A stretch of DNA of 41,755 nucleotides, taken from positions 1 through 41,755 of the forward strand of contig JAQXZB010000096.1 in the NCBI GenBank assembly GCA_029226975.1. Reading direction: 5' to 3'. The stretch's first letter is position 1; every line of letters begins with the position of its first letter. Source of the DNA: Clostridiales bacterium (GTDB taxonomy: Bacteria > Bacillota > Clostridia > UBA1381). A model generated the notes under the pieces. It did not search any database, was not told the origin of the DNA, and was given only the letters and a program-made list of their open reading frames with translations. Below are positions 700 to 41,755 of the stretch, in pieces. Made by a program: the position numbers and the translations under genes.

Positions 700-914
700 A
701 ACAATTAAACATTGCCTAATACCCTGAGATTTCGCGTAGAAAAGTCTTCTTTTTACCAACACTTCTTAAACGGGATGTAAACTCCGAGCGCGGCGTATAC
801 GCCTCCTTTCCTTCGGGACTGCCAGTGGACATATAAAACGCTTGGGTACAGCCCACCTGCTAACGCAGGTAGAAATTTGACTTTATAAACGGTTATTTTG
901 GGGTTATTTTTTTT
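700..914 (+). ncRNA. ssrS: 6S RNA (SsrS)
   Basis: This ~210-base non-coding stretch has its own promoter and ends in a T-run (907-914). It shows features shared with known 6S RNAs. A 5' strand reads CCCTGAGATTTCGCG, close to the CUGAGAU-UUCGC 5' strand of E. coli 6S. A 3' strand carries a GGGTACAGCCC motif, and a small ACCTGC-TAAC-GCAGGT hairpin sits at 855-870. The 5' AATACCC and 3' GGGGTTATT (899-907) can close the molecule. 6S RNA mimics an open promoter and sequesters SigA-RNA polymerase in stationary phase. The call rests on remembered motif similarity and layout; a covariance-model search (RF00013) would settle it. Confidence 0.72.
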
Positions 915-18037: not shown

Positions 18038-18067
18038 ATCTCATAGTATAAACTATGAGATTTTTTT
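18038..18067 (+). terminator. Terminator of rhaB, possibly an attenuator of the next gene
   Basis: A perfect 10-bp stem (ATCTCATAGT / ACTATGAGAT, loop ATAA) is followed by seven T. It ends only 4 bases before the GGAGG of the next gene, so it sits in that gene's leader if the leader starts upstream. Confidence 0.9.
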
Positions 18068-18084
18068 GTTCAGGAGGCATTTTA

Positions 18085-19632
18085 ATGGAATTGATAAATG
18101 AAAGTATAAATGTTACGCAAACGGCGGCGAGCGGAAAAACGCAGACGCTTGCCGAGGGTGATGTCATAGTGCCGGACATTAAGCCGGATATTTTAAAGCT
18201 GCTGCAGGTGGACGCGGTCTGCTCCGTAACGGACAAGGAGGTAGAGGACGGCGCGGTGTCGCTTTGTGGGGTTGTGGATTTAAAAATACTGTACATACCC
18301 GACAATGAGAGCGACCGTATAAAAAGCATAATCACCTCCTTTGATTTTGCGGACAGGATAGAAAACAGAAAAATTCTTCCCTCAAGCACCGCAATGGTAA
18401 ATTCGGCGGTGGAGAGGGTGGAGTTTTCCATGATAAACAGCCGCAAGCTCAGAGTAAAGGCTGTGGTGGGCTTTGAATATGAGATAGTCAATACCGCCGA
18501 TATGGAAGTAACTGTGGACATAGCGGACTGTGATGAGATGGAAATGGAAAAAGAAACTATTTCCGTACAAAACTGCGTTGATTTGTCGGAGCATATGTTT
18601 ACCGTTTCGGACAATGTGGAAATTCCTACGGGACAGGGCTCTGTAAGGGAACTTTTAAAGCTTGACGCATCCATAAGCGATACCGAGTACAAGGCTATGA
18701 GCGGCAAGGTAATCGCAAAGGGCGAGGTAAATATCAGCGCGCTCTACAATAATACCGACGGAGAAATAGAATACTGCGAAGCCCAGCTTCCCTTTACCGA
18801 AATTTTTGAGGGTGCGCTCATAAGCGAGGAAAGCTGCTGTGATATAGATTATGCCATAAGGGAGGGAGAGGTAACTCTTGAGGAGGACAGCGACGGAGAT
18901 TTAAGGATAATCAACGCTTCAATGGAGGTGACGGCGCAGCTTAAGGCATCGGAAACAGTAGAAATGCAGATGGTCAGCGACTGTTACCGTCCTTTTGCAA
19001 AAACTACGGTGGAAAAGCAAAAAATTCGCCTTGAAGAGGTAATCTCAAAGCCGGTAATGCAAAATACCGTCCGCGAAACCATCGAAACAGGCGCAAAGCT
19101 GCCGCGGGTTTTGGGAGTGTACAACGTTATAACCAAGCCGGTGGTGAAAAAAGCACAGCTTGAGGGCGGCAGACTGCTTTGCGAGGGCTATATAGAGGCG
19201 TGTGTGCTCTATCTTTCCGACAGCGCGGAAAACCCGGTCTACAGCATTAAAAAGGATATTCCCTTCAGCTATATGATGGACGCGGAAATGAAGGAGAACG
19301 GAGATGACAATGTCCAGGCAAGGGTCAAGGCTGAGATAAAGCATACCGGCTATAATCTGAACGCCGCCGGGGAGGTAGAGGTCAGGTGCATACTGCTGCT
19401 TTCGGCAAATATCGTAAAGAGCCGGGATTTGGAGCTTATAAGTGCAGTGGAGAGCGAGGAACAGCCCTGCGGCTGCGGACGCGGAATTGTAATATGCTTT
19501 GTGCAGCCCGGCGACACGCTCTGGAGCATAGCCAAGCGCTACAGCGTTCCCAAGCGGGCGATTATGGAATTTAACGATATGCAGGAGGAGAGCCTAAAAA
19601 CGGGCGCAAGGCTTCTGATACCGGGGAAATGA
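18085..19632 (+). CDS. SipL-like DUF3794/LysM sporulation protein
   Basis: This 515-residue protein has DUF3794 segments in its N-terminal and central parts (patterns such as GDVIVPDIKPDILKLL and GAKLPRVLGVYNV) and a C-terminal LysM domain in the last ~50 residues (VQPGDTLWSIAKRYSV...AIMEFND...GARLLIPG). It matches SipL of Clostridioides difficile, which binds the spore-coat ATPase SpoIVA through the LysM domain and is needed for coat assembly at the forespore surface. I chose the ATG at 18085 over 18055, because AGGAGG sits 7 bases before it while 18055 lies inside the terminator hairpin. No clear SigE/SigK promoter was recognised, which is odd for a coat gene. The spoIVA gene is not in the window. 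Confidence 0.88.
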   Translation: MELINESINVTQTAASGKTQTLAEGDVIVPDIKPDILKLLQVDAVCSVTDKEVEDGAVSLCGVVDLKILYIPDNESDRIKSIITSFDFADRIENRKILPSSTAMVNSAVERVEFSMINSRKLRVKAVVGFEYEIVNTADMEVTVDIADCDEMEMEKETISVQNCVDLSEHMFTVSDNVEIPTGQGSVRELLKLDASISDTEYKAMSGKVIAKGEVNISALYNNTDGEIEYCEAQLPFTEIFEGALISEESCCDIDYAIREGEVTLEEDSDGDLRIINASMEVTAQLKASETVEMQMVSDCYRPFAKTTVEKQKIRLEEVISKPVMQNTVRETIETGAKLPRVLGVYNVITKPVVKKAQLEGGRLLCEGYIEACVLYLSDSAENPVYSIKKDIPFSYMMDAEMKENGDDNVQARVKAEIKHTGYNLNAAGEVEVRCILLLSANIVKSRDLELISAVESEEQPCGCGRGIVICFVQPGDTLWSIAKRYSVPKRAIMEFNDMQEESLKTGARLLIPGK

Positions 19633-19636
19633 TGAA

Positions 19637-19910
19637 AGGGTGCGGCAAATCGCCGCACCCTCAGACCGTCGACAAATTGGTCAGACCGTGCGGGATTTTA
19701 AATCAAAAGCAAAAATATAATCTCTTAATATTACCAAAGGCATTCCATCGAAGAATGCCTTTGGTATGCACTTTCCGCGAAAATAAACTCTACCGTACCA
19801 ACGTACGCCTACGAGTTCATTTTCGCGAAATCTGACTCAATTTTTCGCAGTCTGCCGGCGTGTAGACAAGTTTGTCTACACGCTTAGGGTGCGGCAAATC
19901 GCCGCACCCT
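19637..19910. repeat. Cluster of palindromes bounded by identical hairpins
   Basis: In this 284-base intergenic gap, identical 25-base sequences occur at 19637-19661 and 19886-19910. Each is a hairpin with 9-bp core arms GGGTGCGGC/GCCGCACCC and loop AAATC. Between them lie three further hairpins. 19732-19766 has a perfect 14-bp stem (TACCAAAGGCATTC). 19776-19827 has 15-bp arms with one mismatch, enclosing a CGTAC-CAAC-GTACG hairpin. 19858-19883 is a 26-base palindrome (GCGTGTAGACAA and its complement). CAGACCGT is repeated at 19662 and 19682. No open reading frame has coding character. It resembles a mosaic of extragenic palindromic repeats. Confidence 0.8.
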
Positions 19911-19916
19911 GTATTG

Positions 19917-20228
19917 TTATGCCATTTTTGCTTTTTCGAGAGTTTCTATTATGTAATCCTCCACCACATCGTAAAGGGACGTGGGCGTTACCTTTCCCTG
20001 CTTTATTATCCGCACAAATTCCTCTATATCCGATTTTTTGTAGAATATATTGTTTATTTGCTTGGTTTCAACGGATTTGCCGCCGCCCTCGTAAACATTT
20101 ATTTTCTCGACGCGTACCCCGTAGCTTTCAAGATCACTGTAACGCTCCGATATGCTCTGTACCACAATATAATAGCGCAGCTCCGCGTCATTTAGATATT
20201 CCTCTCCGCAGAATATACTTCTTTCCAT
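19917..20228 (-). CDS. DUF6514 family protein
   Basis: This 103-residue, mostly hydrophilic protein begins MERSIFCGEEYLNDAELRYYIVV and has the central YGVRVEKI..GG...ETKQINNIFY and the terminal LYDVVEDYI region of a small clostridial family listed as DUF6514. Its function is unknown, and there is no signal, membrane helix or catalytic motif. A TTG two codons further upstream is possible, but the ATG at 20228 has GGGAGG 8 bases before it and is preferred. A promoter at 20279-20307 (TAGACA, 17, TATAAT) reads into it. It lies between the palindrome cluster and the SRP RNA. Confidence 0.75.
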   Translation of the reverse strand: MERSIFCGEEYLNDAELRYYIVVQSISERYSDLESYGVRVEKINVYEGGGKSVETKQINNIFYKKSDIEEFVRIIKQGKVTPTSLYDVVEDYIIETLEKAKMA

Positions 20229-20278
20229 TTCCAAATCCTCCCATTATTACATTCATGTTACTGTTTTATTTCAAAAAG

Positions 20279-20549: not shown

Positions 20550-20690
20550 TGAGCGCAGTGTAATTATTGAACATTCGGCGATGAAGACCGAGCCTGTGCG
20601 ATTTTGACCTGCGAACATTGTCAGATGGGGAACCAAGCAGCAATAAGCAGTGCTCAAGATGTGTTACAGTCACCTCGGTCGGAGCCAATT
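20550..20690 (+). ncRNA. ffs: Signal recognition particle RNA (4.5S/scRNA)
   Basis: The apical domain IV, which binds Ffh, is clear: TGTCAG, then TGG-GGAA-CCA as the GNAR tetraloop stem, then AAGCAGCAATAAGCA (about 20620-20650). A basal helix pairs GACCGAG (20586-20592) with CTCGGTC (20674-20680). The core therefore spans about 20584-20685, the size of a short bacterial SRP RNA; the first ~35 bases of the transcript may be extra leader. Its place directly upstream of dnaX-ybaB-recR is the same as in Bacillus subtilis. The RNA scaffolds targeting of membrane and secreted proteins. Exact ends are estimates. Confidence 0.88.
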
Positions 20691-20742: not shown

Positions 20743-22563
20743 ATGGCGCATCAGGCGATTTACCGTAAATGGCGGCCGATGATATTTGAGGATATAATCG
20801 GTCAGGGTCATATTACGCAGACTTTAAAAAATCAAATTCTGACCGACAAGGTCGGTCACGCATATCTTTTCTGCGGAACTCGCGGAACAGGAAAAACCAC
20901 CTGTGCAAAGGTGTTCTCCCGTGCGGTAAACTGCCTTAACAACCATAACGGCAGCCCCTGCAACGAATGTGAGATATGCAAGGGTATTATTGACGGTTCA
21001 ATAATGGACGTTACCGAAATAGACGCCGCTTCAAACAACGGCGTTGACGATATAAGAGGGATAAAAGAGGATGTAAACTATGTTGCGTCCCTTGCCAAAT
21101 ATACGGTATATATTATAGACGAGGTGCATATGCTCTCGGGAGCAGCCTTCAACGCGCTGTTAAAAACGCTTGAGGAGCCGCCGGAGCACGTTATATTCAT
21201 TCTTGCAACAACGGAACCCCACAAGGTTCCCCAAACGATACTGTCGCGGTGTCAGCGCTTTGACTTTAAGCGTATAAAAAATTCGGATATAATTGTAAGA
21301 ATGAAGGAGATTGCCCACGGCGACGGGCTTACCGTAACGGACGATGCATATGAAATGCTTGCCGCTCTTGCCGACGGCTCAATGCGCGACGGCTTAAGCT
21401 ATCTTGAACGCGTGGCGGGAGCCTGCACCGGCACTATAGGCGCAAAGGAAATTACCGCGGCTTTGGGACTTTCCGACGCGGACTCTGCCTTTGAAATGAC
21501 GGACGCTCTTTGCGGGGGAAATGTGGACAGTATGCTCTCGGTAATGGATCGAGTGGTTTCGGACGGAAAGGATTTGAGGGTTTTTATAGATTCTCTCATA
21601 AAGCATTTGAGGGATTTGATGGTTGTGCAGGTAAGCTCCGACCCGGCATCCGCACTTCAGTGCGGAGCACAGCGGCTTGAAAGGCTTAAGGCACAGAGCA
21701 AAAAAATAACCTTTGAAAAGATTTCCCATGCGGTATCGGTGCTTTGTGAAGCACATTCCGAGGCAAAATGGGTAAAATCTCCCAGAGTGATATATGAGCT
21801 TGCGCTGATAAAGATTACAAAGCCGGAGCTTGACCGAACACCTCAGGCACTTATGGACAGGCTCAGCGCCATGGAACATAAAATAGAGCATGGCGTAAAG
21901 GCTGAGCCGGATGAGTCCCTTGCCGAGAGGGTTAAGCTTTTGGAGGACAGGCTAAAGGGTGTCAATGCTCCGATTGCCGAAACAGCTAAGGAGGAAAAGC
22001 CGGCTCCCAAGCCGAAGCGTGAAACCTTAAAGCGGCTTTATAATCCGATTCCGGAGGAAGAGTTAAACGGCGAAAATCCAATCGTTAAGGCGGCAAAAAA
22101 CTGGAGCAACGCCGCAAAGGCAATAGTTGCCGATAATCCGCCGTTGGGTGCATTTTTGAGAAACCGCAGCATTACCATAGACAGGGACGGAATTATTCTG
22201 ATTTACAAGCGTGACGAGGGCGTTGCCAGAAGCATTGTGACCTCGAAGCTTGCAAATATCCAAAAAAGCTTTGCAAAGTTCACCGGTCAAAGCTTTAAGA
22301 TAAAGGTGGCGGTTGACGATGAGCTTTCGGAGGATAACTATATTGATTTTTGGAATCTTCCCGCCCCGGCAAAGGAGGCTAAGCAGCCTGACGAAAATGT
22401 CGATCCCCTTGACACGCTGACGGAAAATTTTCCGGAAATTGTCGATGTGACCGATGACCGGGAATTTTTGGAGCATAATTTCGAGGAGGACAGCTTCTCG
22501 CAGTCCAACTTCGGTGACAAGGAAGAATTTTTAGAACAGAAAGAAATGTCCGATGAGGACTAA
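20743..22563 (+). CDS. dnaX: DNA polymerase III subunits gamma and tau
   Basis: This 606-residue clamp-loader ATPase loads the sliding clamp at the replication fork. The AAA+ module has Walker A GTRGTGKTT (45-53), a zinc site C64, C73, C76, C79, Walker B YIIDEVHMLS and the SRC motif (TILSRCQRFDF). The collar domain follows. The C-terminal tau-like part (about 360-606) has a charged linker and an acidic end, as in Gram-positive forms. No slippery frameshift signal for a separate gamma was recognised. The ATG at 20743 follows AGGAAGGG. It heads the conserved dnaX-ybaB-recR operon. Confidence 0.95.
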   Translation: MAHQAIYRKWRPMIFEDIIGQGHITQTLKNQILTDKVGHAYLFCGTRGTGKTTCAKVFSRAVNCLNNHNGSPCNECEICKGIIDGSIMDVTEIDAASNNGVDDIRGIKEDVNYVASLAKYTVYIIDEVHMLSGAAFNALLKTLEEPPEHVIFILATTEPHKVPQTILSRCQRFDFKRIKNSDIIVRMKEIAHGDGLTVTDDAYEMLAALADGSMRDGLSYLERVAGACTGTIGAKEITAALGLSDADSAFEMTDALCGGNVDSMLSVMDRVVSDGKDLRVFIDSLIKHLRDLMVVQVSSDPASALQCGAQRLERLKAQSKKITFEKISHAVSVLCEAHSEAKWVKSPRVIYELALIKITKPELDRTPQALMDRLSAMEHKIEHGVKAEPDESLAERVKLLEDRLKGVNAPIAETAKEEKPAPKPKRETLKRLYNPIPEEELNGENPIVKAAKNWSNAAKAIVADNPPLGAFLRNRSITIDRDGIILIYKRDEGVARSIVTSKLANIQKSFAKFTGQSFKIKVAVDDELSEDNYIDFWNLPAPAKEAKQPDENVDPLDTLTENFPEIVDVTDDREFLEHNFEEDSFSQSNFGDKEEFLEQKEMSDED

Positions 22564-40233: not shown

Positions 40234-41211
40234 ATGGCAGAACTACGTTGGAACCCGCTTATAAAGGATTGGGTTATGATTGCATCACACAGACAAAACA
40301 GACCCCAGATGCCCAAGGACTGGTGTCCGTTTTGCCCCGGCTCGGGCAAGGTGCCGGATAATTTTACGGTATATAAATACGATAATGACTTCCCGGCATT
40401 GTCCCAGGACCCGCCAAAGCCCGATGATGTTGAAACAAGATTATACAAGACAAAGCCCTCATACGGCAAATGCGAGGTAATATTATACTCGCCGGAGCAT
40501 ACGGTAACGCTGCCGGAGCTGCCTGTTGACCATATAAGAGAGCTTGTGGATTTGTGGACGGAAAGATTTGTTGAAATCTCAAAGGATGAAAACATTAAGT
40601 ATGTGTTCATATTTGAAAACCGAGGCGATGTTGTGGGCGTAACAATGCCGCATCCTCATGGACAGATTTACGGCTATTCCGTAATCCCCAAGAAGATCGA
40701 GTTAGAGCTTGACTCATGCAGGGAGCATAAAGAGGAAACCGGCAGATGCCTTATCTGCGATATGATAGAGGACGAAAAGCAATCAGGGGACAGAATTATT
40801 TTTGAAAATGACGATTTTGTTGTATTTTTGCCTTTCTACTGCGAATACCCCTATGGTATCTACATAGCCGCAAAGCGTCATATTCAAAATCTTACCGAAA
40901 TGACCGACAAGGAAAAGAACAGCCTTGCAAAAACTCTTAAAGAGGCGGCAGGTACACTGGATTCGCTCTTTGACTATGCGTTCCCGTATATGATGTGTAT
41001 GTACCAAAACCCGGTAAACGGCGAGGATACCTCGGAGTATTACCATTTCCATATAGCCTTCTATCCGCCCATGAGAAGCGCGGACAAGGTTAAGTTCAAT
41101 GCGTCATCGGAAACCGGAGCATGGGCTCACTGCAACCCGACCGCACCTGAGGAAAAGGCTAAGGAGCTAAGAGCAGCTCACGAAAAATTCCTTAAAAAAA
41201 CAGATAAATAA
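40234..41211 (+). CDS. galT: Galactose-1-phosphate uridylyltransferase
   Basis: This 325-residue HIT-superfamily enzyme exchanges UDP between UDP-glucose and galactose-1-phosphate in the Leloir pathway. The N-terminal MAELRWNPLIKDWVMIASHR is typical, as is the zinc site with CPFCPGSG. The catalytic motif is HPHGQIYGY (HxHxQ), and the C-terminal half repeats the HIT fold with YYHFHIAFYP. Length is normal. The gene has its own promoter; galK and galE are not in the window. Its 3' end lies 16 bases from the start of the insertion sequence, so any downstream partner gene may have been displaced. Confidence 0.95.
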   Translation: MAELRWNPLIKDWVMIASHRQNRPQMPKDWCPFCPGSGKVPDNFTVYKYDNDFPALSQDPPKPDDVETRLYKTKPSYGKCEVILYSPEHTVTLPELPVDHIRELVDLWTERFVEISKDENIKYVFIFENRGDVVGVTMPHPHGQIYGYSVIPKKIELELDSCREHKEETGRCLICDMIEDEKQSGDRIIFENDDFVVFLPFYCEYPYGIYIAAKRHIQNLTEMTDKEKNSLAKTLKEAAGTLDSLFDYAFPYMMCMYQNPVNGEDTSEYYHFHIAFYPPMRSADKVKFNASSETGAWAHCNPTAPEEKAKELRAAHEKFLKKTDK

Positions 41212-41227
41212 TCAAAAAAAAATAAAA

Positions 41228-41755
41228 GGGGCTGTTAAAAAAGTCCCCAAATAGTGAAAAGGAATCTCAAAATGGGATTCCTTTTCTGCATATTTCTTTA
41301 AATCTATATAGAATATGGTTTTTTGAAATCAAAACAAAGCCCATCGTTTTAAGGACTCAAATTTTAAAAAATATTGATAGTTTAGGCTGCTGTTTTTGCA
41401 AGCCGTTGTTTTTTCATATGGTATTTGTATAGGTTAAAACCACAACAAATTGTCATAAACTCAAAATTTACAGATTTTAACCCACGTCTGTGTATCCGTT
41501 CGTACCCTCTATCACTTTTGATTACTCCATATGTTCCTTCGGATTGAATACTTCTATTCATTCTGAGCAGTGCCCCGTGGATACAGTTTAAGTTATTTAA
41601 AACTTCTATGTGAAAACTTGTTAATTCTTCATTCATACGGATAATTCTGTTTTTCTCACTTTTATGACATTGACTTCGATATTCACATCCACTGCAATCT
41701 TCACATTGATAGTATTCTTCAGTTCTTCCAAATTTATTGCCTTTAATTGGTCTGT
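41228..41755 (-). mobile_element. IS1182-type insertion sequence, 3' part, runs off the window
   Basis: The region from GGGGCTGTTAAAAAAGT (41228-41244, the likely terminal inverted repeat) to the right edge belongs to an insertion sequence whose transposase reads leftward. A hairpin at 41257-41286 (AAAAGGAATC/GATTCCTTTT) lies between the transposase stop and the end. The other end and the target duplication are outside the window. Insertion is just 16 bases after the galT stop. Confidence 0.8.
41382..41755 (-). CDS. IS1182-family transposase, C-terminal part
   Basis: About 124 codons of the C terminus are visible; the rest is beyond the right edge, and the frame is open across the edge. The segment upstream of the internal ATG at 41636 is coding: it reads a cysteine-rich stretch (YYQCEDCSGCEYRSQCHKSEKNR) followed by IIRMNEE. 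The conserved catalytic-Glu block follows (MNRSIQSEGTYGVIKSDRGYERIHRRG), then the basic end YKYHMKKQRLAKTAA. That order is typical of the DDE transposase of the IS1182 family. Whether the element is intact cannot be judged here. Confidence 0.88.
   Translation of the reverse strand, partial: RPIKGNKFGRTEEYYQCEDCSGCEYRSQCHKSEKNRIIRMNEELTSFHIEVLNNLNCIHGALLRMNRSIQSEGTYGVIKSDRGYERIHRRGLKSVNFEFMTICCGFNLYKYHMKKQRLAKTAA

Follow-up and report, generated by a model that had tools for sequence, protein, structure and literature searches.

A non-coding, MITE-like element in a clostridial intergenic gap, probably inserted at a terminator stem-loop that now flanks it in two copies

A hairpin-filled gap between two convergent genes

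The window, that is, the whole stretch of 41,755 nucleotides analysed here, contains a 284-base gap for which the initial annotation had described five hairpins within positions 19637-19910, the outer two being exact copies 224 bases apart. All five were located (stems of 10 bp in the two outer hairpins; between them 14 bp, 19732-19766; 18 bp at 89%, 19773-19830; and 12 bp, 19858-19883) and they fill that interval. The outer pair corresponds to 25-mers, AGGGTGCGGCAAATCGCCGCACCCT, at 19637-19661 and 19886-19910, which are 100% identical and have a spacing of 224 bases. The neighbours had been read as a sporulation gene and a DUF6514 gene, and this reading held, the former encoding a SipL/SPOCS and LysM protein and the latter being convergent with it. 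The features are as follows.

18055-19632, + strand: gene for a SipL/SPOCS-LysM sporulation protein
19633-19916: gap between the convergent genes, 284 bases
19638-19660: putative target stem-loop, copy 1 (target-site duplication), GGGTGCGGC-AAATC-GCCGCACCC; identical to 19887-19909 and stopping exactly at the start of the repeat
19661-19886: putative mobile element in its full-length form A, 226 bp; ends common to dispersed copies
19661-19679, + strand: left terminal inverted repeat TCAGACCGTCGACAAATTG; kept in all subfamilies, pairs with 19840-19854
19732-19766: hairpin H1, 14 bp; sequence varies between genera with pairing retained, two-sided changes in 10 of 10 pairs
19773-19830: hairpin H2; two-sided changes in 12 of 13 stem pairs
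19794-19809: inner loop of H2, CGTACCAACGTACGCC, nearly invariant
19840-19854, - strand: inner right inverted repeat ATTTTTCGCAGTCTG; paired to 19661-19679, and form-B copies end here
19858-19883: right terminal hairpin H3, GCGTGTAGACAA-GT-TTGTCTACACGC; 99% of cells paired, two-sided changes in 3 pairs
19887-19909: putative target stem-loop, copy 2; a terminator-like tail then follows
19917-20234, - strand: gene for a DUF6514 protein, convergent with the sporulation gene

The DNA fold of the gap reaches -85.3 kcal/mol, compared with -33.4 +/- 3.9 for shuffled sequences (z -13). Shuffles likewise predict 0 matches for the 25-mer, while 4 were found with both strands counted, and TCAGACCGT is present twice, at 19661 and 19681. 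Elsewhere in the window, Rfam models place a 6S RNA at 718-908 (+ strand) and a bacterial small SRP RNA at 20585-20683 (+ strand); a DNA polymerase III gamma/tau-like gene (20743-22563) begins shortly downstream of the latter.

The inner hairpins belong to one dispersed element

Partial or whole copies of the sequence between the two stem-loops, about 35 in number and up to 96% identical, are dispersed in the same genome; the true copy number may be higher, because many copies lie at contig ends. Aligning the copies fixed the ends of the element at TCAG...CTGA, which corresponds to 19661-19886 in the window; the copy studied here reads TCAG...CTTA, the former being the family consensus. Full-length copies measure 177-241 bp, and the element is non-coding and too short for a transposase gene; the listed open reading frames that overlap the gap are short, and they extend into its flanks. 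Its terminal inverted repeats are nested: the inner right arm is the pairing partner of the left end, and H3, which sits beside the second stem-loop, lies beyond that arm. The left end also resembles the outer right end, TCAGnnnGTnGACAAA, although this match is weaker than that to the inner arm. Within H2, the loop core CGTACCnnCGTACGCC is nearly invariant across copies. The inner hairpins thus form one conserved element and the outer hairpins lie outside it, a point absent from the initial annotation. That annotation had suggested a mobile or modular element, either a mosaic of extragenic palindromes or a MITE. The dispersed copies with constant ends bear out the MITE-like reading and not the mosaic; in a REP or BIME array the palindrome would be a genome-wide repeated unit, and the 25-mer occurs at one site only.

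Diverged relatives, mostly 70-90% identical, were found in at least seven further Clostridia genomes of the order, and exact matches to the left end, searched across 84,980 species genomes, fall among named genomes mainly in gut Clostridia and Oscillospiraceae MAGs; the hairpin pairing is identical in those relatives. The copies come from draft genomes, mainly MAGs. No relative of the element was detected in the two same-genus genomes searched, and no match to it in plasmids and phages. Another family of dispersed repeats (GGGGCTGTTGC... with CTCGACGTACCNNCGTACGCCTTCGGG) was observed in several element-bearing genomes (L161 around 1240-1760, L180, L153, L040 and L041). It has the loop motif GTACCNNCGTACGCC in common with H2, the remainder being unlike, and elements resembling it also occur in genomes G001 and G002, both of which are devoid of the first family.

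The fold is conserved across 38 diverse aligned copies, with 91% of cells paired and two-sided (compensatory) changes in 35 of 62 pairs. Cells with such changes number 277, as compared to 84 in shuffles, and slid controls score far lower. Stem mismatches outside the outer stem are about equally G-T (35) and A-C (29). This lack of strand preference gives no sign that the RNA of one strand is the selected form, and on these alignments a fold of the element at the DNA level appears at least as likely; it is a lean and not proof, because the copies compared are related to one another and were aligned automatically. The earlier idea of a structured RNA found no counterpart among known families, as no Rfam covariance model matches the element at the gathering score. 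Strong covariation would suit a conserved structured or regulatory RNA of 3' untranslated regions that is not a mobile element. Such an RNA would be hard to reconcile with copies that are dispersed, patchy, truncated and located at unrelated genes, with the lack of Rfam matches and of strand bias, and above all with the target duplications described below, which largely refute it; we consider it very improbable.

Full-length copies usually sit between duplicated terminator stem-loops

The left flank of the copies usually ends in a stem-loop, and full-length copies usually show the same stem-loop at the start of the right flank. Among 47 full-length copies, a stem-loop abuts the left end in 40 and the right end in 44, while in 39 the similarity of the left and right flanks exceeds the 99th percentile of cross-pairs. 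In the 28 clean duplications, of 18-29 bp, duplication length follows stem-loop length closely (r = 0.96); a few longer hairpins, of about 40 bp, are likewise present in two copies. A larger set gave a duplicate in 44 of 54 full copies, 27 of these 44 being identical across the aligned stretch. Unlike flanks were seen in the other 10, in some of which two different hairpins stand on the two sides. We attribute them, short of proof, to recombination between copies or to assembly joins, as indicated in the case of L014, whose flanks match up with flanks at two other copies. At another copy (L005, G000:C36:66609) the right stem-loop has an inverted loop (AGAA versus TTCT).

The sites have the surroundings of intrinsic terminators. 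The 3' end of a gene adjoins 43 of 49 copies, 21 of them in convergent arrangement, and the distance from stop codon to element is mostly 25-50 bases. Over eight bases, the upstream side averages 4.6 A and the downstream side 4.9 T; the A-rich sequence precedes the left stem-loop and the T-rich sequence follows the right one, as would result from splitting one bidirectional terminator and copying its hairpin. Since duplicates are frequent and their length tracks that of the stem-loop, we interpret the 25-mers as a whole terminator hairpin that underwent target-site duplication. The identical end hairpins had been taken as a feature of the element; instead, the 25-mer is unique and every copy has its own, different pair, the duplicated local terminator. 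For the same reason a search of the genome with the 25-mer, which the initial annotation had proposed with the absence of other copies as a refutation, is misleading in that role: it was run and returned only the two known copies in 2.8 Mb, as is explained by the 25-mer being the target and not the element. A clean empty site was not obtained among relatives, same-genus genomes included, where synteny did not extend to both sides; orthologous sporulation genes in relatives often end in one terminator, with a different neighbour beyond it.

Altogether, the sequence comparisons indicate that the gap probably holds a non-autonomous, MITE-like element that inserted at a terminator stem-loop, the whole stem-loop being duplicated. 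In its general form, as a mobile element with stem-loop duplication, this is a reading in which we have high confidence.

Truncation is one-sided and tied to loss of the duplicate

Among interior copies whose left end is intact, 54 are complete and 48 are shorter or interrupted on their right side, and only 1 of these 48 has a duplicate stem-loop. Many of the breaks fall at model position 201-205, immediately before H3, often with T-rich sequence next to them; some of the 48 carry internal deletions and retain H3. Part of this set had been retrieved by the left end, and a separate search by H3 alone was added. It returned 65 sites. With left and right ends matched up from hand-copied coordinates, a left end accompanies H3 at 44 of them and a more diverged one at a further 2; 16 sites lie at contig edges, and 3 are truly without any left end. 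The left end is thus missing in about 3 of 49 interior H3 copies (L045, L236 and L238), as compared to the loss of H3 in near half of the left-end copies. As the search by H3 alone agrees, one-sided truncation is not an effect of copy retrieval. Solo H3 palindromes, CAGCGTGT...ACACGCTGA, stand by stem-loops with the rest of the element absent at L236 (240-270) and L238 (298-330). Tandem copies of the element were observed at L207 and L192, with the junction GTCTGC|TCAGAC corresponding to the inner end; L207 has H3 after the last unit only.

That one-sided truncation goes together with a missing duplicate gives a clear hint of the mechanism, and neither this truncation nor truncated copies lacking the duplicate are predicted by plain cut-and-paste transposition. 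They would follow from a reverse-transcriptase route in which complete copies jump onto the overhang of the stem-loop and duplicate it, while copies that stall stop short of H3 and are joined to the T-tract with no duplicate. The position of the breaks, before the stable H3 and often beside T-rich sequence, their one-sidedness, and the presence of the duplicate in full rather than shortened or split copies all fit this route. It is at odds with the stem mismatches, which show no strand preference, and with the RVT_1 model of reverse transcriptases (PF00078), which finds no match in several hosts, including one 99% and one 97% complete. Moreover, the terminator-seeking retroelements that are known, group IIC introns, use the opposite end for attachment. 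We regard this route as improbable.

Alternatively, DNA transposition could always duplicate the stem-loop, and the right side could be lost later, when a polymerase skips H3 together with the target copy. As a variant of our preferred explanation, this covers the truncations. The right side, with its two stable hairpins next to each other, is a typical deletion substrate, and several form-B copies retain T-rich sequence directly after the break; such a course would, however, predict left-side losses too, and these are rare. Later loss therefore seems to us rather doubtful, if still easier to accept than reverse transcription.

Search for a partner element or helper enzyme

A transposase-bearing copy was found neither with the left end, allowing one mismatch, in eight genomes nor with the exact left end in the species genomes and in viral contigs. 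An autonomous parent with the same ends was accordingly not encountered; orphan MITEs do not require one. Left-end-like matches in genome G007 (TCAGACTGTAGACAAAA, L147 and L149) lie beside ordinary genes and were discarded as partners. The IS1182 transposase model gave any match in 3 of the 8 genomes and one above the curated cut-off in 1, and with the IS1182 and DDE_Tnp_1 models nothing convincing was seen in several hosts, two of them 99% complete. Local IS1182 elements were rejected as parent, their ends (GGGGCTGT...) differing from that of the element (TCAGACTGTCGA), as were DDE_Tnp_1 and RVT_1 enzymes as common helper, each being missing from several hosts. At the end of the window's own contig, an IS1182-family transposase fragment (DDE_Tnp_1_6, 41421-41741) has ends unlike those of the element; in the same region (41200-41755), a gene stop is directly followed by an A-rich stretch and then by the presumed IS1182 end, GGGGCTGTTAAAAAAG, as if this had replaced a terminator.

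Long-lived element families in hosts with no resident IS1182 or DDE_Tnp_1 enzyme would be in line with another palindrome-reading recombinase, be it a Cas1-like integrase, a DEDD (IS110-like) enzyme or a single-copy HUH (RAYT-like) enzyme. To our knowledge, target duplications are not normal for HUH and DEDD elements, and we hold a recombinase of this group to be unlikely, although slightly less so than the reverse-transcriptase route.

Proposed mechanism and significance

For the preferred reading, insertion of a mobile element with duplication of the stem-loop, we propose that a recombinase acting in trans would read the hairpin or cruciform by its shape, that the element would be joined on both strands at the stem-loop's 5' feet, and that gap repair would copy the loop to each side. 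Joining at the 5' feet by a DDE-type enzyme is a candidate chemistry, which we favour only tentatively and at somewhat less than even confidence. Because the A-tract stays on the left and the T-tract on the right, each copy of the stem-loop would still terminate one direction; transcripts of the neighbours would then cross the element and stop, and insertion would do little harm. This suggests how a parasite may occupy terminators without harming neighbouring genes. A duplication length set by the hairpin, a folded gene-less element working from one end and a helper other than a DDE_Tnp_1/IS1182 transposase or a reverse transcriptase form, taken jointly, a combination that we put forward with considerable doubt.

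Since duplication length tracks the hairpin, structure-directed target choice becomes testable. A caution also follows, in that paired intergenic hairpins may represent a target duplication and not a functional RNA.

Comparison with known systems

Like bacterial MITEs (PMC10969869), the element is short and non-coding, with inverted-repeat ends, many dispersed intergenic copies and target duplications. It differs from other MITEs in that its target is a hairpin structure that sets the duplication length, and in its nested right ends, conserved internal fold and lack of a known parent. With REP/BIME sequences and their RAYT enzymes it has in common palindromic extragenic repeats near gene ends; unlike these, it is flanked at each site by palindromes not shared with other sites, and target duplications are present. 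Group IIC introns also insert beside intrinsic terminators, but the element duplicates the terminator and occurs in hosts without any RVT_1 match; moreover, no intron-like core, domain V or intron ends were recognised in it by eye, and no group II Rfam model matches it. An analogy exists with CRISPR adaptation, where Cas1-Cas2 integrates at both feet of the palindromic repeat, the whole repeat being thereby copied; here, by contrast, the targets are many unrelated terminators.

Within the open-access literature, the papers on IS1272 were the sole close precedent for terminator duplication. IS1272/TnSha1, of the IS1182 family in staphylococci, has terminator hairpins among its insertion targets (PMC4923244), and ISfinder gives direct repeats of 2-60 bp for IS1182 (PMC7335449). 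As with our element, stem-loops, terminators included, are targeted by shape with no sequence consensus (PMC4923244, PMC5678879). IS1272 differs in removing all or part of the stem-loop with no duplication, in having a transposase and in its other ends, while the element described here is gene-less and duplicates its target. Joining at the 5' feet, which would duplicate the whole stem-loop, was drawn in that work only as a possibility beside the observed stem-loop removal (PMC5678879); the copies compared here appear to represent dozens of natural cases of it, in several genera.
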